NCBI GenBank assembly: GCA_017613855.1
Contig: JAGACY010000169.1
Coordinates: 1-11,086 of the forward strand
Direction of reading: 5' to 3'
Source: Pseudomonadota bacterium
GTDB lineage: Bacteria > Myxococcota > Bradymonadia > UBA4248
Length of the DNA stretch: 11,086 nucleotides
The translations under genes and the position numbers were made by a program. This document shows, piece by piece, positions 1 to 11,086 of this stretch (position 1 is the first letter of the stretch; every line of letters begins with the position of its first letter). The notes below the pieces were generated by a model, which saw nothing but the letters and a program-made list of their open reading frames with translations, had not been told where the DNA came from and did not search any database.

Positions 1-1
1 A

Positions 2-31
2 TTTGTCGAACACGCCAAAGCCTATAAATAA
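2..31 (+). CDS. Possible C-terminal tail of an upstream gene (partial)
   Basis: Frame 2 from the window edge reads FVEHAKAYK followed by TAA at 29-31. The short peptide has a plausible charged C-terminal composition, and the gene would run in the same direction as recN. The other two forward frames also close within 40 bases, so the choice of frame is a judgement from residue composition only. No family can be named from nine residues. Confidence 0.3.
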   Translation, partial: FVEHAKAYK

Positions 32-41
32 CTCAAAGTAA

Positions 42-61
42 AGACGTTCCATGGAACGTCT
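42..61. repeat. 20-bp perfect palindrome, GAGACGTTC family, copy 1
   Basis: The arms AGACGTTCCA and TGGAACGTCT meet with no spacer. The same core (GACGTTC...GAACGTC) recurs at 3349-3371 and 4631-4652, each time in an intergenic region. Here it sits about 85 bp upstream of the recN start. It could be a protein-binding operator, or one arm of the hairpin array described for the other two copies. A shorter palindrome, TGTATACA at 76-83, and a strong hairpin at 95-122 follow it, which mirrors the multi-hairpin layout of the other copies. Confidence 0.75.
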
Positions 62-94
62 CTTACGCTATCTCTTGTATACACGATATTCCCT

Positions 95-122
95 GTAGAG
101 CCGTGTCTCGACACGGCTCTAC
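95..122. repeat. Long perfect inverted repeat in the recN leader
   Basis: The arms GTAGAGCCGTGTC (95-107) and GACACGGCTCTAC (110-122) are perfectly complementary over 13 bp around a 2-base centre (TC). As RNA this would be a 12-bp hairpin with a CUCG loop. It ends 23 bases before the recN ATG and has no T-tract, so it is unlikely to be a standard terminator of the upstream gene. It may be a regulatory hairpin, an operator, or part of the interspersed repeat whose palindrome lies at 42-61. Confidence 0.75.
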
Positions 123-145
123 CAGTCGATGTCATTCCATAAAAC

Positions 146-1840
146 ATGCTGACCACCCTTGTTATAAAGGACTTTGCCATCATTTCAGAGTTGGAGCTCA
201 ACTTTGAGGATGGCATGTCTGTGCTGACCGGCGAGACCGGTGCCGGCAAATCGATTATTGTCAATGCCCTTAAATTGTTGTTGGGAGCGCGGTCTTCGAC
301 GGATATCATTCGTACCGGAGCCGAAGAAGCCGTCGTCGAGGGCATGTTTACGGTTGATCATCGCCATGCACCGGCCATGGCCATGCTCCAGGCCATCGGG
401 ATAAATCTCGATGACGATGAGTTCGTCGTTCGCCGCGTGATTCCCCGCAAAGGACGCGGCCGGATTTATATCGGCGGGACGCTGCAGACGATTACGACAT
501 TGCGCGATTTAATGCGCACGGTGATCGATATCTCCGGGCAGCATGAACATGTCAGTCTGCTCGATGATGCCAAGCATCTGAGCATTCTCGACAGATATGC
601 CTGCATCGAAGACGATACAGACGCCTTTGCCCGTCGTTTTTCCGCTTATTCTGCGCTTAAGCGCGAACGTAACACGTTGGCAGCCTCACTCGAGGAACGC
701 GCCAAAAGACTTGATTTTCTCAATTATCAAATTGATGAGCTTTCATCGGCCAATGTTCAGCCCGGCGAGGCAGACGAGGTGGCCGGGGAACTCAAATGCC
801 TCTCGAATGCAGAGGCGCTTCAGCAGGCCGTTGACAGTGCGATGGCCGATCTCTATGACGATGAAAATTCCATCGTTTCCCGTTTGGGTATGCATATCTC
901 GGCACTGCGCCGTGTATCTGCTGGCCAAAAAGGCATACAGGATGCCGTTGGGGGCATGCAGGATGCCCTCTCGACACTCGAAGATGCCGTTCACGAACTG
1001 CGCCATTTCTCAATGGATGATGCTTCGCCTGAACGGCTCGAAGAACTCCAGTCAAGGCTCTCGCTGATTGACAAGCTCGAGCGGAAATATCGCGTCAAAG
1101 GCGATGATCTTCCGGGCCTTCTGGATTCTCTCCAAAATGAAAAAAAATCGCTCGTCCTTTCGGATGCGCGTATTTCAGAGCTGGATAAAACCATGGCATC
1201 AGAGAAAACAGCCCTTTCCAAGATGGCTGCCGAACTCTCGCAGATGCGCAGAAAGGCCGCAGAAAAACTCGCCCTCGAAGCGACAGAAGGCCTGCATTTG
1301 CTTGCCATGGAGAATGCGGCCATTGATATTATTTGCCATTCTACGGATAATTTCGATAATATGAAGACGACCGGGGCGGATGAAATTCAGTTTCTTCTGC
1401 GCCCCAACCCCGGGGAAGACGCCAGACCACTGGCAAAAATCGCCTCCGGTGGTGAGCTTTCAAGAGTTTTGTTAGCTTTAAAACGCGCGCTAGTGGAAAA
1501 AGACGACGTTGCGTGCTATGTATTTGATGAGGTCGATACCGGCATCGGTGGTCAGACCGCCACGCATGTGGCTTACATGCTGAAAGAAGTCAGTCGGTGT
1601 CATCAGGTTCTGTGCATTACGCACCTGGCTAGCATTGCCAGCTTTGCGGATGCGCATTTTCGTGTATCAAAATCGGTAATCAATGACCGTACGCAGAGTT
1701 CAATCACTCTGCTTAAAGAATCGGAACGCGTCGAAGAAATCGCACGTATGTTGGGGGGGACTTCGATTACGGCCAAGACGATGGAGCATGCCGCCGAGAT
1801 GATCGCGCAGGCACGTGAATCGTCAGCACCGAGAAAATAA
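146..1840 (+). CDS. recN: DNA repair protein RecN (SMC-like ATPase)
   Basis: RecN is a cytoplasmic SMC-family ATPase that acts early in recombinational repair of double-strand breaks. The 564 residues match the usual family length. The N-terminal half-ATPase carries Walker A GETGAGKS at 29-36 and the RecN-typical ISGQHEH at 129-135. Residues about 160-375 are helical and charged, as expected for the coiled-coil arms. The C-terminal half has the ABC signature ASGGELSR at 433-440, Walker B with CYVFDEVDTGIGG at 457-469, the switch region ITHLASIASFAD at 491-502, and EEIARMLGG near 530. The ATG at 146 is the first possible start because an in-frame TAA lies at 140-142, and MLTTLVIKDFAII is a typical RecN N-terminus. 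No Shine-Dalgarno sequence is visible upstream. recN is SOS-induced in many bacteria; the palindromes in the leader are candidate control sites, but that is inference. Confidence 0.97.
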   Translation: MLTTLVIKDFAIISELELNFEDGMSVLTGETGAGKSIIVNALKLLLGARSSTDIIRTGAEEAVVEGMFTVDHRHAPAMAMLQAIGINLDDDEFVVRRVIPRKGRGRIYIGGTLQTITTLRDLMRTVIDISGQHEHVSLLDDAKHLSILDRYACIEDDTDAFARRFSAYSALKRERNTLAASLEERAKRLDFLNYQIDELSSANVQPGEADEVAGELKCLSNAEALQQAVDSAMADLYDDENSIVSRLGMHISALRRVSAGQKGIQDAVGGMQDALSTLEDAVHELRHFSMDDASPERLEELQSRLSLIDKLERKYRVKGDDLPGLLDSLQNEKKSLVLSDARISELDKTMASEKTALSKMAAELSQMRRKAAEKLALEATEGLHLLAMENAAIDIICHSTDNFDNMKTTGADEIQFLLRPNPGEDARPLAKIASGGELSRVLLALKRALVEKDDVACYVFDEVDTGIGGQTATHVAYMLKEVSRCHQVLCITHLASIASFADAHFRVSKSVINDRTQSSITLLKESERVEEIARMLGGTSITAKTMEHAAEMIAQARESSAPRK

Positions 1841-1859
1841 AGAGCCTTTGCGCTCTTTT
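1839..1859 (+). terminator. Terminator-like hairpin directly after recN
   Basis: The arms AAAGAGC (1839-1845) and GCTCTTT (1852-1858) flank a 6-base loop, and the 3' arm runs into TTTT (1856-1859). It overlaps the recN stop codon and ends only 13 bases before the next gene's ATG. The stem is short and only moderately GC-rich, so it may act as a weak terminator or attenuator within a recN-M23 operon rather than a full stop. Confidence 0.55.
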
Positions 1860-1872
1860 GAGATATCCCTAT

Positions 1873-3264
1873 ATGTCACAGCATAAACTCCCCCTCTCCA
1901 TGACCATGGGAAGACGAAAAAGATCTCCGTGGCCATGGATTCTGGGCGGCATCGCGCTTGTTATTGCGGTGCTTTGTGTCTGCGTTTTGTCCCATGGCGA
2001 GGACGATGATATGCTGACCGAGTCAGATCCCATCGATCTCGATGCACTGGGCATGCAGGAATGGTCTGATCTTTCCGAATTAACCCGGCAATATATGGAT
2101 GAGGATATCCCTCAGGATGTCCCGGAACCTACGCTCGATAATTCGGATCCATTCCTCATCAAAGGCAAAATTACCAGAAATCAGACGCTCTTCGTCGCAC
2201 TCAAAAATCATGGCCTCGATCTGGGCGATATTCACCAGGTCATTGCCTCTATGCAGAATATCGTCGACTTTAAACGCACCAAACCAGGTGATCGTTATGA
2301 AGTGCATCTCGACGTCGATAAACGCATCCTCAAGTTCATCTATGAGATTTCTGCTGAGGATATCAGCATCGCCGAACGCAACGGCAACGAATTTGTTGCC
2401 CATAAGGTCGATGTGCATAAACGCACGGAACGCAGATTGGTAAAAGGGGAACTCACCTCATCGCTCTATCAGGCATTTATCGATTTGGGCGAATCGGGTG
2501 AACTGGCTTCCCATTTTATGCAGCTGTTCAAGTACGACATTGATTTCGGCACAAACTCTCAGCGCGGCGATACATTTAGTGTGCTCGTCGATCGGGTCAC
2601 GCTCAATGGCGAATTCTATCGCTATGGCCGGGTTTGGGCTGCCACTTATCAATCGAATGCACTCGGCAAAAATCTCGAAGCCTACTATTTCGAATCCGAC
2701 GAGGAATATTCCGGCTATTACAATGCCGAAGGCCGTGGTTTAAAGCGCAATATCCTCAAGACGCCCGTCGTCGGATGCAAAGTTTCGAGCCCTTATAACC
2801 CCAAGCGTCTGCATCCCATCTTTAAAACCATACGTCCTCACCGGGGCATCGACTGGGCCTGCAATACCGGTACGCCCATTTACGCATTTGCCGATGGCGT
2901 CGTCACTTTTGCCGGATGGAAAGGCGGCAACGGGAACCTGCTCGTCATCGAACATGCCCATGGTTATACTTCGCTGTACGCCCATCTCTATGCTTTTGGC
3001 AGAGGCATCAAAAAAGGCGCCAAAGTCCGCCAGGGGCAAATCGTTGCGCAGGTCGGCAATACCGGTAACTCGACGGGACCACACCTTCATTTTGGTGTTA
3101 AAATTAACGGTGAATACGTCGATCCCGCCAAGATCAATGACAGTTTCTCGCTTGAGCTCACAGGCAACCGGCTGCATACATTCAATCAGACGCGCGACAA
3201 AATTAAGCTGGCTATGTCGGGACAGCCCGGTGCCATCGAAATTGTGCAGGATTCGGCCAAATAA
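1873..3264 (+). CDS. M23 family metallopeptidase, MepM/Csd3-like, membrane-anchored
   Basis: Likely a zinc-dependent peptidoglycan D,D-endopeptidase acting in the periplasm. From the ATG at 1873 (463 residues) there is a basic N-terminus with one membrane segment at about 20-42. A LysM/OapA-like region follows at about 96-160 (GKITRNQTLFVALKNHGL...). Next comes a Csd3/MepM-like second domain at about 195-295 (LYQAFIDLGES...FKYDIDFGTNSQRGDTF). The LytM/M23 catalytic domain spans about 300-420. All metal and catalytic residues are present: HRGID (H323, D327), YAHL (H371) and GPHLHFG (H404, H406), so an active enzyme is expected. The frame is also open from a TTG at 1858, but that codon lies inside the post-recN hairpin, so the ATG at 1873 is preferred; its ribosome site is weak (GAG at 1860-1862). 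No separate promoter is obvious, which suggests co-transcription with recN. Confidence 0.93.
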   Translation: MSQHKLPLSMTMGRRKRSPWPWILGGIALVIAVLCVCVLSHGEDDDMLTESDPIDLDALGMQEWSDLSELTRQYMDEDIPQDVPEPTLDNSDPFLIKGKITRNQTLFVALKNHGLDLGDIHQVIASMQNIVDFKRTKPGDRYEVHLDVDKRILKFIYEISAEDISIAERNGNEFVAHKVDVHKRTERRLVKGELTSSLYQAFIDLGESGELASHFMQLFKYDIDFGTNSQRGDTFSVLVDRVTLNGEFYRYGRVWAATYQSNALGKNLEAYYFESDEEYSGYYNAEGRGLKRNILKTPVVGCKVSSPYNPKRLHPIFKTIRPHRGIDWACNTGTPIYAFADGVVTFAGWKGGNGNLLVIEHAHGYTSLYAHLYAFGRGIKKGAKVRQGQIVAQVGNTGNSTGPHLHFGVKINGEYVDPAKINDSFSLELTGNRLHTFNQTRDKIKLAMSGQPGAIEIVQDSAK

Positions 3265-3270
3265 CAGCAT

Positions 3271-3381
3271 GACGCGCTGTATTGCCGCAGGCAAGAGGCG
3301 CGTCCAAAGGCCGTATCGCGAAGCAATAGGCCGATATGGCGAGCTGCAGAGACGTTCCCGGGGAACGTCTCAAAGCGAGCG
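3271..3381 (-). repeat. Interspersed hairpin-array element, copy 2 (minus orientation)
   Basis: Three consecutive hairpins fill the space after the M23 gene. The first (3271-3304) pairs GACGCGC with GCGCGTC and TTGCC with GGCAA around a GCA loop. The second (3309-3332) pairs GGCC with GGCC and TATCGC with GCAATA around GAA, leaving G3313 bulged. The third (3349-3371) is GAGACGTTCCC, a central G, and GGGAACGTCTC. Read on the minus strand, the whole stretch aligns with 4623-4731 and includes shared blocks such as TCGCTTTGAGACGTTC, AACGTCTCTGCAGCTC, TCGGCCTAT, CGCGATACGGCCT and TGCCTGCGGCA. No T-tract follows the first hairpin, so it may end the M23 transcript by structure alone or not at all. 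Confidence 0.85.
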
Positions 3382-3443
3382 CCACACCATGAAAGCCCCC
3401 GAATGGGCAAAAAATCACATTCAAAATACAATCTTTTCTGCGG

Positions 3444-3449
3444 TATGAT
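3444..3449 (+). promoter_or_regulatory. Candidate -10 box for the DUF362 gene
   Basis: TATGAT lies 50 bases upstream of the chosen ATG at 3500, just after an AT-rich stretch. No good -35 element is found at 16-18 bp; TTCAAA at 3420-3425 is the nearest candidate. This is a sequence-only guess. Confidence 0.3.
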
Positions 3450-3490
3450 GAATGCGTGTTCGGGGGATTTATGAAGTATTATTGCAAGCT

Positions 3491-3494
3491 GGAG
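3491..3494 (+). promoter_or_regulatory. Ribosome binding site that fixes the DUF362 start
   Basis: GGAG is spaced 5 bases before the ATG at 3500. That ATG begins a textbook Lys-Lys signal peptide. An earlier in-frame ATG at 3452 would add 16 residues (MRVRGIYEVLLQAGVP) in front of the signal peptide and has no comparable site, so 3500 is preferred. Confidence 0.7.
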
Positions 3495-3499
3495 TTCCT

Positions 3500-4609
3500 A
3501 TGAAAAAATGGCTCATCTCTCTTGCTGTGTTATCGCTTCTTTGCAGCGTTTCATGCTCTCCGAACAAATCCGGCGAGAATGTCGAGACGCCTACCGAAAA
3601 TAATGTTCCTGCGGCACAGCCCGATCATGGTGGTGATACCGCTGCGGATGAAGCTAAAAATGAGGAACAGGGCGGCGATTCGGCCAAAACAGATACTTTT
3701 AAAACAAACGGCGGTTACGATATCAGCCTGTCTGCGCTGCCGCATCAAAAGGCAGATGCCGAAACGCCGGTGTATTTCATTTCGGAGATAAGCCCCGAAT
3801 CGCTGGTCAAGGTTTATCAGCAGCTGCACTGGGAACCTAAAGGCAAAGTCGGCGTCAAGATGTCGACTGGCGAGTCCGAAAAGACCAATCATTTGCGCCC
3901 GGAAATGATTAAGGATTTGGTGCATGCCGTGAATGGTACGATCGTCGAATGCAATACGGCTTACGGCGGTAATCGCGCGACGACCGAAAAACATTGGAAA
4001 GTCATCGAAGAACGCGGCTACAAGACGGTTGCCGCTGTCGATATTCTCGATGCCGAAGGTTCGATGAGTCTGCCCGTCGACGGCAAGAATCTCAAGGAAG
4101 ATCTGGTCGGTTCGCACTTCGCCAATTACGATTCCTATCTCGTCTTATCGCATTTTAAAGGCCATCAGATGGGCGGATTCGGCGGTGCCATCAAGAATCT
4201 CTCGATTGGATTCGGCTCATCCGAGGGCAAGCTTTGGATTCATTCTGCCGGACGTTCTAAAACTGAGTGGCTCTCTGACAAACAGGACGAGTTCCTCGAG
4301 TCGATGGCCGAGGCCGCGAAAGCGGTGACCGATGCCAAGCCCATGGTGTACGTCAGCGTCATGAACCGCCTTTCGGTCGATTGTGACTGCAACGCCAATC
4401 CCGCCGAGCCCGACATGCACGATATTGGCGTGCTCGCTTCGGCCGACCCACTCGCCATTGATCAGGCGGCGATCGATATCGTTTATGCCATGCCCGACAA
4501 GGATTCGCTCGTCAAGCGCATCGAACGCCAGAATGGCCTGCATACACTCGATCATGCCGAAGCCATGAAGCTCGGCCATCGCGATTATAAACTCGTCATT
4601 GTACAATAA
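3500..4609 (+). CDS. DUF362 domain protein, probable exported lipoprotein
   Basis: The 369-residue product starts MKKWLISLAVLSLLCSVSC, a signal peptide with a likely lipidation Cys at 19 (SVSC, a weak lipobox). A low-complexity Glu/Asp/Asn/Gly linker covers about 20-66. The body (about 80-369) matches the DUF362 family: VGVKMSTGE near 117-125, TIVECNTAYGGNR at 147-159, LSHFKGHQMGGFGGAIKNLS at 216-235, CDCNANPAEPD at 295-305 and ADPLAIDQAAIDI at 315-327. The biochemical role of the family is not established; many members are cytoplasmic and carry a ferredoxin-type 4Fe-4S module, which is absent here. The gene is flanked on both sides by inverted copies of the hairpin-array element. The distance from the M23 gene and the separate promoter candidate suggest its own transcript. 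Confidence 0.85.
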   Translation: MKKWLISLAVLSLLCSVSCSPNKSGENVETPTENNVPAAQPDHGGDTAADEAKNEEQGGDSAKTDTFKTNGGYDISLSALPHQKADAETPVYFISEISPESLVKVYQQLHWEPKGKVGVKMSTGESEKTNHLRPEMIKDLVHAVNGTIVECNTAYGGNRATTEKHWKVIEERGYKTVAAVDILDAEGSMSLPVDGKNLKEDLVGSHFANYDSYLVLSHFKGHQMGGFGGAIKNLSIGFGSSEGKLWIHSAGRSKTEWLSDKQDEFLESMAEAAKAVTDAKPMVYVSVMNRLSVDCDCNANPAEPDMHDIGVLASADPLAIDQAAIDIVYAMPDKDSLVKRIERQNGLHTLDHAEAMKLGHRDYKLVIVQ

Positions 4610-4622
4610 TCTTTGATGGTGG

Positions 4623-4731
4623 TTCGCTTTGAGACGTTCGAATGAACGTCTCTGCAGCTCACTTTCGGCCTATCGCTGCGCGATACGGCCTCGCCAACAC
4701 GCCTATGCCTGCGGCATACGGCGTGTTTGTT
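4623..4731 (+). repeat. Interspersed hairpin-array element, copy 3 (plus orientation)
   Basis: Three hairpins in a row. The first (4631-4652) pairs GAGACGTTC with GAACGTCTC around GAAT. The second (4667-4690) pairs GGCC with GGCC and TATCGC with GCGATA around TGC, with C4686 bulged. The third (4696-4727) pairs AACACGCC with GGCGTGTT and TATGCC with GGCATA around TGC, with C4719 bulged. The element aligns with the reverse complement of 3271-3381 along nearly its full length, so the two copies form inverted repeats about 1.2 kb apart enclosing the DUF362 gene. Confidence 0.87.
4696..4731 (+). terminator. Probable terminator of the DUF362 gene
   Basis: This is the third hairpin of the repeat element, a 14-bp stem with one bulged base and a 3-base loop, followed by TTTGTTATT. 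It lies 86 bases after the DUF362 stop codon and between two converging genes. The T-rich tail is on the + strand only, which favours termination of the rightward transcript. It may partly block the leftward one too. Confidence 0.6.
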
Positions 4732-4803
4732 ATTGTGTGACGGACGAATGCTCAAAAGTATAGGTTCTGCCTGATGATGTCATGGCCATTGCGGATTATC
4801 GTA

Positions 4804-6111
4804 TTAAAATGGCAGGGCAACCGATGAATCTTTGGGGCGGGGGTCCGGAGCTACGTTTGGATTCGGACCATCTTCTTTGGGAATCTTTGCATATTCATCT
4901 TTCACGAAAGGACATCGCTCGTGCATTTCTGTGAGTGAATACTTTCGATAGGAGATGACGTAATAGTAACCGTCCTCATTATTTTTGACATATCTGCCGT
5001 AGACGAGCTGAAACTCATCCGCTTGCATGAGACTGTCCAGCCATGGCCGATGCGGCTTGTGTTTGCTTTGGAGCAATATTTTGGAGCCATGGTCTGAAGT
5101 TTGAACATCTGCATACGTGAGACGGCCTGCAAAAGCCATCATGACATAGGGATCCATGGTGTCGTCCAGTTCGAAAAAACGATAATGACCGACACATCCG
5201 GTTTCCCATCCCAGGCTGACAAACATCGCTCTATAGTCAGATTCTTCAAATATGCTGTAATAGAATGCCAGATTGATATCCAGCAAATTGTTGTCCGTAT
5301 AAAATGTCTCATTGGAGCTATAGCGGGTGCTATGTCTTTCTTTTTTATTGCTTTTGGGACTTACTTGTGTGCCGGTTATGGTTGAATCAAGCCAGGATGC
5401 TGTCGATCTTGTTTTTTTACATACACCGCCGACGGTGTGCTTGTTGGCCAGGGCTTTGTATAATTTTTGATAATCTATTTTTTTTAGGGCATTCTGAAAA
5501 GAGTTCAGGTCTCCATCCATCTGAATGACGAAATCTTCGGAATTATCATAACAATTCTTGTTGTCTACCAGCTTTGTGATGAGGTCGTTGAGTATATCTT
5601 CGGGATTGCGTCGTAAATCTTCTTTTTTGAGAGGAATTATATTGTCGTTCTTTCTGATCTCATCGAGAATCATGTCGTGCTTTAGATTGAATATGTCTAT
5701 TTGAGTTCTTTCTTCTTGTAATGGTTTTGTTTCGGCAGGTGGAGCGTTATTGGTATTGGTTATATTTTCGGTCTGGATTTCATTGGGTAGATTGGAGATG
5801 TCATTTTCCAGCTTTGGTTTGGAGACAAAGAGTATTACAAAGATAATGATGGCTACGGCTACGATAAAAATGGCTGTTCCAATAATTAAGGGGGCATTTT
5901 GGTTGCTCTGTCTTACGGATGCACTGTAGTAGGGAAATTGATCCGCAGACTTTCCAAAGTTTGATTGTTGATCATTGAACAAGTCATTCGAGCTTTGCGA
6001 ATCGGCGGTTTTTAGAGGTTGTGCGTTCTGGTTCGTCAAATCTGCACCGCAGAATACGCATTTTTTATTGGTATCTATCTGGTTCGCACCGCATTTGTAA
6101 CATTTGATCAT
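4804..6111 (-). CDS. Zinc-ribbon, single-TM protein of unknown function
   Basis: The 435-residue product begins with a zinc ribbon of form CxxC-x10-CxxC (C4, C7, C18, C21). A Gln/Asn/Ser-rich linker and one strong hydrophobic segment at about 74-96 (PLIIGTAIFIVAVAIIIFV) follow. An acidic linker and an unrecognised domain cover about 135-410. The tail (411-430) is Pro-rich. The expected topology is zinc ribbon in the cytoplasm and the large domain outside. A stretch near 325-390 (MMAFAGRLTYADV...FQLVYGRYVKN) has strand-rich spacing that might be an OB-like fold, but this is weak. The start is supported by AAGGAAG at 6121-6127 (minus strand), 9 bases from the ATG. The gene is AT-richer and uses more Asn/Ile/Lys codons than its neighbours, which may mean recent acquisition or low constraint. 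I do not recognise a specific function. Confidence 0.85.
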   Translation of the reverse strand: MIKCYKCGANQIDTNKKCVFCGADLTNQNAQPLKTADSQSSNDLFNDQQSNFGKSADQFPYYSASVRQSNQNAPLIIGTAIFIVAVAIIIFVILFVSKPKLENDISNLPNEIQTENITNTNNAPPAETKPLQEERTQIDIFNLKHDMILDEIRKNDNIIPLKKEDLRRNPEDILNDLITKLVDNKNCYDNSEDFVIQMDGDLNSFQNALKKIDYQKLYKALANKHTVGGVCKKTRSTASWLDSTITGTQVSPKSNKKERHSTRYSSNETFYTDNNLLDINLAFYYSIFEESDYRAMFVSLGWETGCVGHYRFFELDDTMDPYVMMAFAGRLTYADVQTSDHGSKILLQSKHKPHRPWLDSLMQADEFQLVYGRYVKNNEDGYYYVISYRKYSLTEMHERCPFVKDEYAKIPKEDGPNPNVAPDPRPKDSSVALPF

Positions 6112-6120
6112 GGCTTTGGT

Positions 6121-6127
6121 CTTCCTT
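6121..6127 (-). promoter_or_regulatory. Shine-Dalgarno for the zinc-ribbon gene
   Basis: The minus strand reads AAGGAAG nine bases before the ATG at 6111. This is a good match and supports that start, which also places the CxxC pair immediately at the N-terminus. Confidence 0.7.
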
Positions 6128-6284
6128 TGTGGGATGCTTTTGATGGATGCTCCTTGCGGACAAAGAACTGCAATCCGCCATTTACAATACCATAGTTTTC
6201 TTTGCGGGACATCATGAATACGGTATTACAGATTTGCATTTCAGGAAAATATACACTTTTACATGCGAAATCTTAAAACAGTTT

Positions 6285-6293
6285 TGCTATAAT
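6285..6293 (+). promoter_or_regulatory. Extended -10 promoter for the Cys-rich lipoprotein operon
   Basis: TGCTATAAT is a perfect extended -10 element (TGnTATAAT). No good -35 box lies at 16-18 bp; TTTACA at 6258-6263 is too far. Transcription would begin near 6300 and leave a leader of roughly 74 bases before the ATG at 6374. The rest of the 262-bp divergent region (6112-6373) is AT-rich, with a small GCGGA/TCCGC inverted repeat at 6156-6178. No convincing promoter for the leftward gene was identified. Confidence 0.6.
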
Positions 6294-6373
6294 GCCGATG
6301 GGGAAGTTTGACTTGAGACGGCATAAAGGCGTTTTTATCGCTCCATAGCCCATAACAGATAGGTATTAGGAAT

Positions 6374-8323
6374 ATGCAAACAAACAGATGCAAACATCTT
6401 GGACTGATTGTTGTTGCTCTTGCAATGGGTTGTTTTGGAACTTCGTGCAACAACGATGAAGGTGTGCCGTATTCGGTGCCGTCTATAACGGGTGGTAGTG
6501 ATAAGCCGCAGGAAGGCACGCCGGAAACTGGTACTCCAGAAAATCCGGGGGGAACTCCGGGCACGTCCTCGTCCGGATGCGATGTCAACGAAAAGCTTTG
6601 TGACGGCATTTGCAAGGATATCCTGTCTTCGAAGCACGATTGCGGCGGATGCGGCCATGCCTGTGAAGCTACGGAGTCATGTCAGGATGGTAAGTGCATT
6701 GGTTGTGATGGCACGTTGTGTGGCAGTGAGTGCGTTGATTTAACAAGTGATCCAAACCACTGCGGTACTTGTGATAACGCATGCCGAAACAATATGGTTT
6801 GTACTGATTCGGTATGTGAATGTGATATCAGCTGGCTGGACTGCGATGGTGATCCGACCAATGGGTGTGAAGCTGCCTTAGGCTGCAGTTGTATCATTGG
6901 TCAAAAGGGGGCTTCGTACAGTGGGTCTGATGAGACCAGAAACGTCGGTGAGTGTAAAGATGCCGTTCTGGAATGTCAGCTCATCGATGGACTTCATACC
7001 TTTGAACCCGTCGAACCTGAAGTTCTGCCGAGCGAAGGTACGGCATGTGATGGGAAAGACTATAACTGCAATGGTAAAGACGACGGCCACGAAGATATGG
7101 ACCACGATGGATTTTCCATTTGTGACGGCGACTGCTGTGATAATGCGGCCATGTGCAATGCAACAGACAAGCACCTCATCAATCCGGGCATGATGGAGGT
7201 TCCCGGCAATAACCTGGATGATAATTGTAATGGCGAAGTAGACGAGACACCGATCGATCCCAAAACGGTCGCCCCCATTCCCTTCACCTATGGCTCGACA
7301 GATTTAGATACGAGTGCCCGTGCACTCGCTCGCGCGATGGGAATTATTTGGGAATGTGACCCTGCCAAAACGTGTCCCTATGGTTTGGTTAAAGCCAGAT
7401 TGACACGTTCTGAGAGTACTAAGGGGGTGGATCCACGTCAGGTCAATGTGATGGATTCCTGGCGCGACAAGTCCAAAATTGCCCGCGTACTTCCGCGTGA
7501 AGGTAATAACTTTGCAGTACTTTCATCTGGTGCAGCCCAGGATGTCGCCAATGGTGTTGCAGAAGCCGATCTTGAGCTCGAAAAATATGCCTCTGAAACG
7601 AAGCTTCCTAACGGCGAAATGCAAAGGACTGCTCCCGACAGCAAGATTCCGTCGGTATATGCCAATGCTCATGGCAACAAACTCGAAACCCATAAATCCT
7701 GTCCAACGGGAACGGCGGTTCCTGCCATTTTTGACTCGGTGCAGCTTCATCTCGAAATCAAGGCACCCGTCAATGCCATGGGTATTCAGTTCGATTTCCG
7801 CTTTTTCTCGCGCGAATATCCACAGTATCTGTGCTCAAGTTTCAATGACTTCTTCCTCGCGATTCTCACCACGGAACATGCCGATGTAAAAGCAATCCCG
7901 GATCGCAATATTGCCTTCGATATGAATGGCAATCCGGTGTCGGTCAACAATGGCTTTTTCACCACGTGCAATAAAGTGAATTGCGCCAACGGCAGCAATA
8001 AGTGTCCGGCATTTATGAGCTGTGCATCGGACGGCTATTGTTCCGCAGGTGCGGATACATGCCGCGATGGTGCAAGTGCCATCGATGCTTATACACCCAA
8101 TCCCTTTGTGTTTGACATGAAGACCGGGCGCGGCGGCGGTACGGCATGGCTCTCTACGACGGCCCCCATTGTGGGCGGAGAGACCATTACACTCGACTTT
8201 TATATCTGGGATACCCAGGATAATAAATACGATTCCACAGTGTTGATCGATAATTTCAAATGGCTGCTTGATTCAACGAAAGTCAATACAGGGTTTGCAG
8301 AGGATCCAACAGAGATCAATTAA
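6374..8323 (+). CDS. Cys-rich lipoprotein with MopE-like and choice-of-anchor-L-like domains (2 repeats)
   Basis: An envelope or surface protein of 649 residues. The signal peptide (MQTNRCKHLGLIVVALAMGC) has a candidate lipidation Cys at 20 or 25, followed by a Pro/Gly/Thr-rich linker to about 68. Two Stig1/MXAN_6577-like Cys repeats lie at 69-108 and 112-148 (C..lC...C.D..sd..nCG.C...C). A CDGDPTNGCEA motif is at 157-167. An Asp/Asn-rich MopE-like segment at about 225-291 (CDGKDYNCNGKDD, DMDHDGFSICDGDCCD, NNLDDNCNGEVDE) is likely to bind Ca or other metals. The C-terminal domain at about 300-632 resembles choice-of-anchor L (EGNNFAVLSSG, FDFRFFSREYPQYLCSSFNDFF, IAFDMNGNPVSVNNGFF, APIVGGETITLDFYIWDTQD, DSTVLIDNFKW). 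The ribosome site is weak (AGG at 6368-6370). It forms an operon with the larger paralog downstream. The exact function is unknown; adhesion, metal binding or a surface scaffold are inferences. Confidence 0.88.
   Translation: MQTNRCKHLGLIVVALAMGCFGTSCNNDEGVPYSVPSITGGSDKPQEGTPETGTPENPGGTPGTSSSGCDVNEKLCDGICKDILSSKHDCGGCGHACEATESCQDGKCIGCDGTLCGSECVDLTSDPNHCGTCDNACRNNMVCTDSVCECDISWLDCDGDPTNGCEAALGCSCIIGQKGASYSGSDETRNVGECKDAVLECQLIDGLHTFEPVEPEVLPSEGTACDGKDYNCNGKDDGHEDMDHDGFSICDGDCCDNAAMCNATDKHLINPGMMEVPGNNLDDNCNGEVDETPIDPKTVAPIPFTYGSTDLDTSARALARAMGIIWECDPAKTCPYGLVKARLTRSESTKGVDPRQVNVMDSWRDKSKIARVLPREGNNFAVLSSGAAQDVANGVAEADLELEKYASETKLPNGEMQRTAPDSKIPSVYANAHGNKLETHKSCPTGTAVPAIFDSVQLHLEIKAPVNAMGIQFDFRFFSREYPQYLCSSFNDFFLAILTTEHADVKAIPDRNIAFDMNGNPVSVNNGFFTTCNKVNCANGSNKCPAFMSCASDGYCSAGADTCRDGASAIDAYTPNPFVFDMKTGRGGGTAWLSTTAPIVGGETITLDFYIWDTQDNKYDSTVLIDNFKWLLDSTKVNTGFAEDPTEIN
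6578..6817 (+). repeat. Coding tandem Cys-rich repeats (2 units)
   Basis: Residues 69-148 of the first paralog hold two units of about 40 residues, each ending in a C-x(5)-C pair such as CQDGKC and CTDSVC and containing DCGGCGHAC or HCGTCDNAC. They are the short form of the array expanded at 8509-9591. Confidence 0.8.
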
Positions 8324-8329
8324 GGAGAG
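8322..8329 (+). promoter_or_regulatory. Strong Shine-Dalgarno for the second paralog
   Basis: AAGGAGAG overlaps the stop codon of the upstream gene and sits 5 bases before the ATG at 8335. The overlap and the 11-base gap point to co-transcription and perhaps translational coupling. The first gene has a much weaker site, so the downstream protein may be made at a higher rate. Confidence 0.85.
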
Positions 8330-8334
8330 TTCTG

Positions 8335-11007
8335 ATGAGAATTTATTATCCTCTTTTAGTTGCCAGTTTGTTTGTTTCGCTTTCTGCGGCTGGCTGTTCT
8401 AGTGATCTGATCCCTGCATTTGAAGATGACTCTGGCAGCAGCGGTGAAGATGGCCAAGGGAAAAAAACGGGTAAACCAGGTTCTTCGCAGCCAGGAGATG
8501 ATGGGCCGTGCAGTGAAGCGAATTGTTCTGCAACCTGTTGCGATGGCGTTTGCAGAGACACAAAATCGAACGCCAAGCATTGCGGGGAATGTAATCATGC
8601 ATGTGCCGACGGGGAGATTTGTGAAGACGGGCAATGTATGTCATCGTCTGGTTTGTGTCCGGAAAACGAGATGTTATGCACCGATGAGTGTATTCCGATC
8701 GTCAATAATCACGATTTCTGCGGTGACTGTGATACTGTTTGCGGCCCGGATGAAGTGTGTATGGGACGCAAATGTGAATTGGATTGCAAAGGATTGTCAC
8801 ACTGCGGAGACTCGTGTGCGGATTTGCTTTCCAGCGGTGAAAACTGCGGTAAATGCGGTGAGGCTTGTCCGGATGGTCAGGCATGTGTGAACGGCATGTG
8901 TTCGGAAACATGCCCGAATGCAGCTCATGTCATTTGTGATCGTACCTGCGTTGATTTGCAGAATGATTCAGAGCATTGCGGTAATTGCGAAACCGAATGT
9001 GTGGAAGATGAAATCTGTACAGCAGGCAGTTGTACGGGGGTTTGTCCCACCGAGAGCGACGTTATTTGCAATCATAAGTGTGTGAACCTGCAGTCAGATC
9101 ATGATTTTTGCGGCAATTGTGGTACGGCCTGCTCAGCCAAAGCCCGTTGTGTTGAAGGCAGCTGTGTCGAGAGTTGTGACGAGGAAAATGCGGTTATTTG
9201 TGACCATGTATGCAAAAATGTCATGAGTGATCCCGTCAATTGCGGTGGTTGCGGTGTGAAGTGCGGCGAAAAGGAAATCTGTCAGAATGGCATCTGCGGT
9301 TGTCCCGAAGATAAACCCAACTGCAATGAACCTGATTTGGTGTGTGAAAACGCCAATGAAACACCGTGCGGGGATGTATGTGCCGACCTCAAGGTCGATA
9401 GGGATAATTGTGGTGCATGTGGTCAGTCGTGCGGTGAAAATGGCATTTGCCAGAAGGGAAAATGCCTCGATTGTACGAACAAAACCCCCTGTGAAGACGG
9501 CCTATGCTACGACACCCTCAATGATCCCAAGAATTGTGGCGGATGTGGCATCGTTTGTCCTGCAAACATCGCATGCAAAGAGGGCAAATGCACATCCTGC
9601 CTTCCCGATTATGTCGATTGCGATGGCAACCCGGAGAACGGCTGCGAAAAAACGACTGCCGACTGCGCCTGCAAAAATGGCGAAGAAAAGAGCTGTTATT
9701 ATGGTCCGGCCGGTACAGAGGGCAAAGGCGCATGCAAAGGCGGCAAAATGACGTGCACCAATAACAAGTGGGGTGCATGCGAAGGTATGGTCGTTCCTGT
9801 CAATGACTTTAAGTGCCGCAATAAGGAATCGAGTGCAGCCAAAAACGATTTGAACTGCGATGGCAAAGTGGATGGTACCGAAGACTGGGATGGCGATGGC
9901 GTCAACATTTGCGGCGGCGATTGCTGCGACTCGAAAGAACATTGCCCGACCGTCAGTGAGCCGGCTAAGGTTCGTCCGGGATTTTATGAGGTTGCCTCCA
10001 ACAAGATCGATGATAACTGCAATGGCCAGGTCGACGAAGGTGCAGCTACATGCAGTGCTTCTTATTCCTATGGTTCAAACCTGGCCAATGAGAGCAGCCG
10101 CAACAATGCAGGTTTACAGATGGCACATGCCATGGACATCTGTGATGATGCCTCGAAGATGGGCTATGGTCTTGTTTCGGCAACGGTGCAGTCACTTTCG
10201 AATCCGGTTGGCAATGCTGACATGGGCCGTGCTGTAAACGTTTTTTCAAAGCTTCCGGAATCAGGTTCAATCATTAAGCCTAAAGCCGGATCCAGCTTTG
10301 CCGGTATTTCTTCGGGGGCATTTGCCGGCAGCGGGCTGAGCTATTCGGGTAGCTTTATCAGTGGTGGTACCATTCCTTCAAAATATCACGCGGCACATAA
10401 TTATCAGCTGCAATCCCACCCGAATTGTTATTCAGGCAATAACATTAATGATGCCGTTGAGCTGAAGCTGACGCTCAAAGCGCCGATTAATGCAACGGGA
10501 TTTCAGTTCGATTTCCGATTCTTTTCGTATGAATATCCCAATTATGTCTGCACCACATTTAATGACTTCTTTATTGTACTGCTCACGTCCAAAGCGAGTG
10601 GTATCCCGGCGGACACCAATATTGCATTTGATAAGAATGGCGCAGCAGTATCGGTAAACAATGCGTTCTTTACTTCGTGTACGCCCTATACCTGTTATTC
10701 TGTGAGCAGCTGTCGCGCCAATTATTCCTCCTGTTCGGGAGGGTATTGCCAGACGGCTTATGGCGCATGTCCTGATGGCATCGGCGATTTGGCCGCCTTT
10801 GGCGGTGGCAGCAACAATGGTGGTGCTACTGCCTGGCTGACGACCAAGGCACCTGTCGTCGGTGGTGAGACTTTCACACTGGAGTTTATCATTTGGGATA
10901 CAGGCGACTCTGCGCTCGACTCAGCAGCCATTATGGATAACTTTAGGTGGATCACCTCTGGTGGTTCTGTTAGTGTCGGAACAGACTTTACCGATCCGCG
11001 AACATAA
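8335..11007 (+). CDS. Cys-rich lipoprotein with MopE-like and choice-of-anchor-L-like domains (8 repeats)
   Basis: An 890-residue paralog of the preceding protein with the same domain order but a longer Cys-rich region. A lipoprotein signal ends at SAAGC (Cys 21), then an acidic Gly/Ser linker runs to about 58. Eight repeats span 59-419, each roughly C..a.viC...Cv.l.sd..nCG.CG..C.....C..g.C. A CDGNPENGCEK motif is at 429-439. A myxobacterial-type segment follows at 444-483 (CACKNGEEKSCYYGPAGTEGKG...WGACEG), then a MopE-like Asp-rich stretch at 505-568 (LNCDGKVDG, DWDGDGVNICGGDCCD, NKIDDNCNGQVDEG). The choice-of-anchor-L-like domain covers about 575-873 (FQFDFRFFSYEYPNYVCTTFNDFF, NIAFDKNGAAVSVNNAFF, APVVGGETFTLEFIIWDTGDSALDSAAIMDNFRW, each cited here only as a landmark). 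Repeat 7 is longer than the others. No C-terminal sorting tail is visible. The role is inferred as a secreted or outer-membrane surface protein. Confidence 0.9.
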   Translation: MRIYYPLLVASLFVSLSAAGCSSDLIPAFEDDSGSSGEDGQGKKTGKPGSSQPGDDGPCSEANCSATCCDGVCRDTKSNAKHCGECNHACADGEICEDGQCMSSSGLCPENEMLCTDECIPIVNNHDFCGDCDTVCGPDEVCMGRKCELDCKGLSHCGDSCADLLSSGENCGKCGEACPDGQACVNGMCSETCPNAAHVICDRTCVDLQNDSEHCGNCETECVEDEICTAGSCTGVCPTESDVICNHKCVNLQSDHDFCGNCGTACSAKARCVEGSCVESCDEENAVICDHVCKNVMSDPVNCGGCGVKCGEKEICQNGICGCPEDKPNCNEPDLVCENANETPCGDVCADLKVDRDNCGACGQSCGENGICQKGKCLDCTNKTPCEDGLCYDTLNDPKNCGGCGIVCPANIACKEGKCTSCLPDYVDCDGNPENGCEKTTADCACKNGEEKSCYYGPAGTEGKGACKGGKMTCTNNKWGACEGMVVPVNDFKCRNKESSAAKNDLNCDGKVDGTEDWDGDGVNICGGDCCDSKEHCPTVSEPAKVRPGFYEVASNKIDDNCNGQVDEGAATCSASYSYGSNLANESSRNNAGLQMAHAMDICDDASKMGYGLVSATVQSLSNPVGNADMGRAVNVFSKLPESGSIIKPKAGSSFAGISSGAFAGSGLSYSGSFISGGTIPSKYHAAHNYQLQSHPNCYSGNNINDAVELKLTLKAPINATGFQFDFRFFSYEYPNYVCTTFNDFFIVLLTSKASGIPADTNIAFDKNGAAVSVNNAFFTSCTPYTCYSVSSCRANYSSCSGGYCQTAYGACPDGIGDLAAFGGGSNNGGATAWLTTKAPVVGGETFTLEFIIWDTGDSALDSAAIMDNFRWITSGGSVSVGTDFTDPRT
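8509..9591 (+). repeat. Coding tandem array of eight Cys-rich repeats
   Basis: Units start at residues 59, 108, 151, 193, 237, 281, 323 and 380, with a typical period of 40-44 residues (about 120-132 bp); unit 7 is about 55 residues. Units 4, 5 and 6 are most alike (ViC...C.dlq.D...CGnC), suggesting local duplication. The DNA copies have diverged, so the array is not a recent slippage product. Confidence 0.85.
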
Positions 11008-11016
11008 AACCGGATT

Positions 11017-11050
11017 TGCAGCGCGTATTGGCTTTGCCAATAGCGCTGCA
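11017..11050. repeat. Long bulged hairpin after the paralog operon
   Basis: The arms TGCAGCGC and GCGCTGCA plus TATTGGC and GCCAATA enclose a TTT loop, leaving G11025 unpaired: 15 bp in total with one bulge. The layout (outer stem, single bulged base, TAT/ATA inner stem, 3-base loop) matches the hairpins at 3309-3332, 4667-4690 and 4696-4727. It lies directly upstream of the terminator. Confidence 0.8.
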
Positions 11051-11063
11051 GGCGATGTGTAAG

Positions 11064-11085
11064 AAAGCGGCGCTTGCCGCTTTTT
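11064..11085 (+). terminator. Rho-independent terminator of the Cys-rich operon
   Basis: The arms AAAGCGGC (11064-11071) and GCCGCTTT (11076-11083) flank a GCTT loop and run into five T's (11081-11085). It sits 57 bases after the stop codon at 11007 and is the clearest intrinsic terminator in the window. Confidence 0.85.
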
Positions 11086-11086
11086 A

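Follow-up and report, generated by a model that had tools for sequence, protein, structure and literature searches.

Interspersed hairpin families of one Myxococcota order, one of them conserved in structure around a TAT kernel with a bulged G, make up two arrays flanking a DUF362 lipoprotein gene

The window examined here, an 11,086-nucleotide stretch of Pseudomonadota bacterium DNA (GenBank assembly GCA_017613855.1, contig JAGACY010000169.1, positions 1 to 11,086) that GTDB places in Myxococcota, Bradymonadia, UBA4248, carries two arrays of small hairpins as inverted copies around a DUF362 lipoprotein gene: array A at 3271-3381 (read on the minus strand) and array B at 4623-4731 (plus strand). 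Each array combines members of two interspersed hairpin families found in one Myxococcota order and consists of three hairpins, one AGACG palindrome and two hairpins in a row that share a fixed kernel, TAT paired with ATA beside a single unpaired base. Definitions of palindromic repeats in bacteria usually rest on sequence, and it is often unclear if the acting form is DNA or RNA. The kernel family varies in almost all of its sequence, and the strand that is foldable can therefore be read from its loops and mismatches. That strand is the one carrying the unpaired G. We propose, with a probability of about one half, that these are strand-specific DNA hairpins near gene ends that would be extruded from the duplex, and that a putative protein would read their bulged-G/TAT kernel.

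We call the strand with the unpaired G the G-strand and the complementary view, with an unpaired C, the C-strand. On the C-strand the hairpin runs stem, TAT, inner stem, loop, inner stem, ATA, one unpaired C, stem; on the G-strand it reads 5'-C(G)TAT...ATAG-3', with one bulged G and a lower-stem arm that ends in C. Lower stem, upper stem and loop all vary in sequence, yet the stems stay complementary around the kernel. Among 77 hairpins with a single 3' bulge in 396 kb, 33 have TAT with a bulged C (C-strand view) and every other kernel occurs at most twice; with looser stems this kernel was counted 57 times, whereas 255 other kernels averaged 1.34 and reached 11 at most. When six outer and three inner pairs had to be perfect, the bulge of TAT hairpins in 1.69 Mb of DNA from the order was C in 151 cases, T in 1, and A or G in none, and 6 sites had no bulge (each unbulged site being counted on both strands). 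The strict hairpins in the same 1.69 Mb number 383, nested and overlapping calls included; 369 are distinct, and the set includes 165 different outer arms, 120 inner arms and 157 loops. The lower stem extends over 7 to 8 bp, since with mismatches allowed 249 of 275 hairpins are paired at position 7 and 147 of 275 at position 8 (the base profile and offset counts use 271 of these, hairpins near locus ends having been dropped). Matches to a pattern with exact ends have a complementary interior in 39 of 39 cases in DNA of the order. Spread by viruses was considered and rejected: at least 120 viral-contig stretches match, but in the 80 loci kept only 4 of 81 matches have a complementary interior, and these are therefore put down to chance. 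At four loci (L169 1959-2020, L156, L094 and L095) a GGACG- or GAGACG-type palindrome is nested as the tip of a kernel hairpin; at L169 the inner stem is perfect over 19 bp.

The G-strand is the strand kept foldable, because asymmetries of both the loops and the stem mismatches favour it. Read on this strand, the 148 triloops include 66 GNA and 5 TNC and the 92 tetraloops include 52 GNNA and no TNNC; other loop lengths occur in 31 hairpins, and 229 of 271 are closed by C-G. Hairpins without the kernel in DNA of the order are symmetric, with 33 GNA and 29 TNC among 212 and 18 GNNA and 21 TNNC among 239. The 152 G-strand mismatches at positions -1 to -6 comprise 116 purine-purine, 5 pyrimidine-pyrimidine, 23 G.T and 8 A.C pairs, and those of kernel-free hairpins with one mismatch (n = 22) are chiefly G.T and A.C. 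Stability computed with DNA parameters favours the G-strand by 173 to 45 of 269 hairpins. The loop and mismatch asymmetries persist with and without a T-run, by which we mean TTTT within 9 nt 3' of the hairpin on the C-strand (72 of 383, against 4 of 383 with AAAA on the 5' side). We read these features as those of DNA rather than RNA, because GNRA loops do not exceed GNYA loops (23 vs 29), because G.T is much rarer than purine-purine, and because orientation to the adjacent genes is even (84 vs 73, p 0.42). Hairpin loops of the d(cGNNAg) type are stable in DNA, and pyrimidine-pyrimidine is the least stable kind of DNA mismatch. The compact GNA loop with a sheared G.A pair is a known DNA motif (PMC6479982).

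The family is abundant in the order of the closest relative. A covariance model built from 28 hairpins and applied at E up to 0.01, with 150 candidates scored per genome so that the counts are lower bounds, gave at least 121, 120, 133, 167, 161, 65, 144, 32 and 0 matches in nine genomes of this order, G001 to G009, among them the two closest relatives by DUF362 protein, a cattle-colon bin (L001, G001) and Myxococcales bacterium UBA4248 (L002, G002). Eight of the nine are thus positive, all but G009, and the best match of G008 (E 5.7e-5) is weaker than those of the other positive genomes. A preliminary description of the window had taken dozens to hundreds of such matches in the host genome as support for a REP-like family, and a total of only two copies as the mark of a local duplication; the eight relatives, with 32 to 167 or more matches each, agree with the first of these. 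In a sample of 176 genomes of the phylum, with about 41 candidates scored per genome, 6 have a match and 5 of these belong to the order (at least 22-42 each); among the 171 outside it, G056 alone is positive, with one weak match (E 4e-4). None of 41 genomes of other lineages (genomes with a DUF362 match, 42 of their 78 loci, one left out) matches the model, the order genomes serving as positive control. The string GGCCTAT-N(3-20)-ATACGGCC was also counted: on both strands together it occurs 92, 54, 87, 72, 11 and 45 times in G002 to G007 and 0 or 1 time in the remaining 182 of 188 genomes searched, and its reversed control 0 to 2 times per genome. Rfam yields no match in the window at the gathering threshold. 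Contigs of G002 and G005 (L149, L181-L185 and others) sometimes end at or near kernel hairpins, contig C232 of G002 doing so inside array A, so that these repeats may break metagenome assemblies and be under-counted.

Comparison of orthologous places shows the stems changing around the kernel. Behind the orthologous M23 peptidase gene, kernel hairpins lie within 420 nt (167 nt in G002) in G002, G003, G004 and G006, and their sequences all differ; the M23 end of G005 has two strict-list kernel hairpins with 2-bp upper stems and that of G001 one with a 4-bp lower stem (by eye), and none passing the threshold was found within 420 nt in G007, G008 and G009. Where a G004 hairpin could be mapped to a stretch of G005, a strict kernel hairpin is present there in 11 of 18 cases; the reverse direction gives 12 of 12 (not independent of the first) and window to G002 gives 3 of 3, with the reservation for all these counts that the hairpin found could be one lying next to the actual counterpart. 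Twenty-two such rows (18 from G004, 3 from the window and 1 from array A), less 3 that had no candidate and those scoring below 15, left 13 best-aligned pairs, which contain 13 both-sided changes that preserve pairing, 11 one-sided changes and 2 both-sided unpaired ones. Without the doubtful pair L179 19377 the figures are 9, 10 and 2 of 123 positions, and we calculate that chance alone would give about 0.7 both-sided paired changes. In one example ACTCCCCTAT-cgctgcgcg-ATACGGGGAGT in G004 corresponds to GCACGCCTAT-cgctacgcg-ATACGGCGTGC in G005. At L179 14300-14600 of G004 a kernel dimer has next to it two copies of a unit of about 120 bp, AAGGAAGCTCTGAATAATTCGAAAACCTCC..GTTCAGACCTTCC, which G005 lacks; by eye, a similar piece comes after M23 in G003 (L150).

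Kernel hairpins tend to lie close together, 136 of 269 non-overlapping ones having a neighbour within 100 nt. The 72 neighbour pairs at this distance are head-to-tail in 64 cases, as in the arrays of the window, and inverted in 8, so that the close inverted repeats of bacterial interspersed mosaic elements (BIMEs) or doublets of repetitive extragenic palindromic (REP) sequences (REPINs) are the smaller part. Tight dimers (n = 53) have chief spacings between their 8-bp stems of 0 nt (24) or 3 nt (12), and many have A-rich flanks on the G-strand. With genes called by a simple in-house caller, density per kb is highest between convergent genes (2.84), followed by tandem (1.21) and divergent ones (0.58); of the 383 strict hairpins, 47 fall inside called genes and 54 at stretch edges. 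A kernel hairpin lies within 300 nt of 148 of 750 gene ends against 86 of 750 gene starts. Neither the hairpins without a T-run (63 vs 69, p 0.66) nor the dimers (15 vs 13) are oriented relative to genes. T-run copies between tandem genes (n = 25) follow the direction of the genes in 21 cases and oppose it in 4, and the T-run subset as a whole, about a fifth of the family and the only part with the make-up of an intrinsic terminator, probably doubles as intrinsic terminators.

If the G-strand folds as single-stranded DNA, it would do so either by extrusion from supercoiled DNA near gene ends or when exposed in replication. The conserved core, bulge and loop on one strand suggest that a putative host protein recognises the folded DNA, and it would then contact the bulged-G/TAT kernel and not the stem sequence; in the T-run subset the other strand would probably also serve in termination. 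Several points weigh against this proposal. The reading protein is itself putative. RNA parameters favour the G-strand too (153 vs 56 of 269), and with the loops randomised the preference under DNA parameters stays (156 vs 59), so that the energy comes mostly from the mismatches and the bulge and is not independent evidence on the loops. Single mismatches of the upper stem (n = 11) lean the opposite way, with 8 T.G and 2 C.A on the C-strand. No link of the hairpin strand to GC skew was found (Spearman -0.02), and a replication-strand bias seen by way of GC skew was dropped as a candidate. Seven of the 18 G004 hairpins have no strict hairpin in the mapped stretch of G005. Kernel constancy among the ortholog pairs is in part built in, because the search for them demanded the kernel and its C; the pair statistics of the covariance model (alignment A7) are circular, because its rows were picked for pairing; and the assemblies are fragmented.

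The main rival, possible but doubtful, is that the hairpins belong to the REP-type non-autonomous elements and owe their spread to a Y1 transposase (of the kind of REP-associated tyrosine transposases, RAYTs, or like that of IS200-IS605), with the kernel as its contact and the stems drifting. TnpA-REP reads a bulge and GTAG, the upper stem being only structural (PMC8266576), and the preliminary description had pointed to a RAYT as something to look for. Y1 matches occur in seven of the nine genomes, one to four per genome; G005 and G006, which bear hairpins, yielded none at E 0.001 (assembly gaps are possible). By eye, palindromes of different sequence adjoin the Y1 gene in the 8 loci, out of 10, that a motif filter recovered. 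Within the outer arm and the 6 nt next to it, CTAC was counted on the GTAG side for 29 of 383 hairpins and on the other for 6; in 24 it sits exactly at the foot. Most kernel hairpins have no GTAG, and their dimers are head-to-tail, not inverted. Kernel hairpins are only slightly enriched near Y1 genes, occurring in 4 of 10 Y1 loci (8 in 28 kb, or about 0.29/kb vs 0.16 overall). The seven G004 hairpins without a strict G005 counterpart would suit mobility, yet four G004/G005 alignments, which bear on a MITE-like origin as well, gave no clean empty site, the intergenic DNA there being too diverged. An IS605 element linked to TnpB was rejected as a source, TnpB being found in only 1 of 9 genomes and no kernel hairpin at that locus. 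The palindromes beside the RAYT-like Y1 genes (L127-L131, L134-L136) include GAACCCC..GGGGTTC, CCCCGGT..ACCGGGG and GCACCCTGAAAGGGTGC, and the Y1 genes of L129 and L134 adjoin open reading frames that by eye resemble type I restriction specificity genes.

That the hairpins act instead as RNA, serving this order as intrinsic terminators and as stabilisers of 3' ends with a lineage-specific kernel, would account for the T-run skew, for the 21:4 agreement with gene direction and for the excess at convergent sites and gene ends. We consider it unlikely: the copies without a T-run show no orientation, some lie within called genes, most of the mismatches that the terminator strand carries are pyrimidine-pyrimidine, and termination needs neither kernel nor bulge. 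Neutral correction of quasi-palindromes, in which template switching during replication copies arm onto arm with no selection, could produce the both-sided stem changes between orthologues, but it should remove the bulge, which is present in 151 TAT hairpins against 6, and the loops and mismatches favour one strand; we think it very improbable. The inverted placement of arrays A and B had also raised the idea that they let the DUF362 gene invert or move as a cassette. There is next to no chance of this, as the kernel has many copies elsewhere and the M23 ends of G003, G004 and G006, and on the strict list that of G005, carry hairpins with no DUF362 match in those loci, which extend about 1.5 kb past M23.

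Within the window, the likeness of the two arrays that the preliminary description had noticed holds up well, at about 80-87% identity and with much better folding than shuffled sequence. In blastn they agree at 79.6% over 108 nt (E 1.7e-16, in the small set searched) and over 101 ungapped columns at 87.1%, with a local score of 60.5 against a shuffle maximum of 21.5 (n = 1000). Inverted repeats join 3308-3334 to 4665-4691 (27 nt, 93%), 3341-3357 to 4644-4660 (17 nt, 100%) and 3363-3378 to 4624-4639 (16 nt, 100%). The folding z-scores of the two arrays are -4.3 and -6.1 as DNA and -4.2 and -6.2 as RNA, equalled by 0 of 200 shuffles. Their G002 counterparts are slightly closer to them (89.8% and 90.7%) than they are to each other, and both arrays keep their orientation to their own neighbour gene in G002, whose contigs break between the arrays, so that an inversion there could not be seen. 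The earlier view that stems are kept while loops and arms differ was right about the loops and arms, but the stems differ as well, and against G002 the kernel stems and the AGACG palindromes have changed on both sides. In the first kernel hairpin of array A, AGA replaces ATA, which the G002 counterpart retains. Since TTTGTT follows on the plus strand, and a run of nine T in the G002 counterpart, the hairpin at 4696..4727 probably serves the DUF362 gene as its terminator too.

Table 1. Hairpins and palindromes of the window
Feature	Position	Strand	Details
AGACG palindrome	42..61	no strand	upstream of recN, GTAA foot
AGCCG palindrome	99..118	no strand	GTAG foot, gtagAGCCGTGTCTCGACACGGCTctac
Array A, kernel hairpin 1	3271..3304	+ (G-strand)	lower stem, bulged G at 3279, TAT, loop GCA
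Array A, kernel hairpin 2	3309..3332	+ (G-strand)	GGCC-G-TAT-cgcgaagca-ATA-GGCC, loop GAA
Array A, AGACG palindrome	3350..3370	no strand	GCAG foot; GTAG in G002 copy behind DUF362
Array B, AGACG palindrome	4632..4651	no strand	GCAG foot, read on minus strand
Array B, kernel hairpin	4667..4690	- (G-strand)	GGCC-G-TAT-cgcgcagcg-ATA-GGCC
Array B, second kernel hairpin	4696..4727	- (G-strand)	8-bp lower stem; TTTGTT after it on +
Lone kernel hairpin	11017..11050	+ (G-strand)	G002 counterpart at L002 7440-7470

The genes of the window are recN, the M23 peptidase gene (its protein 95% identical to that of G002), the DUF362 lipoprotein gene and those of cysteine-rich proteins of STIG1/MopE type. Two of the latter, at 6374-8323 and 8335-11007, are adjacent, give STIG1/MopE-like matches and resemble each other in their C-terminal parts (DNA repeat D1); they are probably a duplicated pair.

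The second family of the arrays, the AGACG...CGTCT palindromes with a GYAG or GTAA foot, may be REP-like. The form GAGACGTTC-N(2-6)-GAACGTCTC has 9 copies in G001 and 13 in G002, and the genome-wide count of the AGACG/AGCCG type is 64, with ordinary terminators mixed in. The AGACG/AGCCG palindromes of the window with a GYAG foot look like Stenotrophomonas REPs such as GTAGAGCCGACCGTTGGTCGGCT (PMC3686654). One further palindrome, long and perfect and located where contig L081 ends, is likely to be a fold-back of the assembly and was excluded.

Searches of the open-licence PMC literature aimed at the kernel hairpin family or its kin listed no paper whose title or abstract describes it, and a term search of the RepRanger survey (PMC12306157) found no word beginning Myxococc. 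If the proposal is confirmed, the hairpins would offer hundreds of natural variants with which to ask which protein reads extruded chromosomal hairpins, and sequence-based repeat finders could be missing families conserved only in structure. More tentatively, and at a likelihood well short of even, the set may be the address system of a putative order-specific binding protein in chromosome topology, replication or recombination, held by selection over species divergence while the stems are free, a structural code like that of attC sites but in the service of the host chromosome itself.

Among known systems, the REP, BIME and REPIN sequences associated with RAYTs (GTAG families of E. coli, Pseudomonas and Stenotrophomonas) resemble the kernel hairpins in being short, imperfect and high in copy, mostly extragenic and downstream of genes, with an irregularity in mid-stem and a strand polarity. 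The preliminary description had named REP/BIME-like interspersed repeats as one possibility, and in kind it is supported, the kernel family being high in copy and mostly intergenic; but known REP dimers are mostly inverted and kernel dimers are not. A REP is defined as GT(A/G)G plus a palindrome (PMC3686654), and E. coli TnpA-REP is described as requiring both GTAG and the bulge (PMC8266576); GTAG stands exactly at the foot of 24 of 383 kernel hairpins and at no fixed offset more than three times in 271 long-stem hairpins. The GTAG-23 family of T. roseum, a REP inserted in a palindrome (PMC3733652), shares the arrangement of a palindrome within a palindrome, but the outer stem of the kernel hairpins varies without a consensus. 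End hairpins of IS200/IS605 elements that have an unpaired base are read as single-stranded DNA; here, by contrast, no element with kernel-hairpin ends and a transposase gene was found. For IS608 the unpaired base of the end hairpin is T17 (PMC8266576).

Integron attC sites are likewise read by their recombinase as a folded single strand with extrahelical bases and vary widely in sequence. The kernel hairpins differ from them in being shorter and in showing no R/L boxes or cassette arrays; their base profile has no fixed GTT/AAC in the flanks, though no integrase search was made. The promoters of the phage N4 virion RNA polymerase number three and have no TAT kernel described in the part of PMC4496689 available, and no polymerase is known for the kernel hairpins. 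Extrusion of the N4 promoters by supercoiling depends on closure of the loop by C-G and on the loop's own G and A, and the single-stranded DNA-binding protein (SSB) melts only the hairpin of the other strand (PMC4496689). The kernel hairpins share with them a short DNA hairpin with a C-G-closed G/A loop, and by analogy this loop may keep the G-strand hairpin open against re-annealing and SSB.

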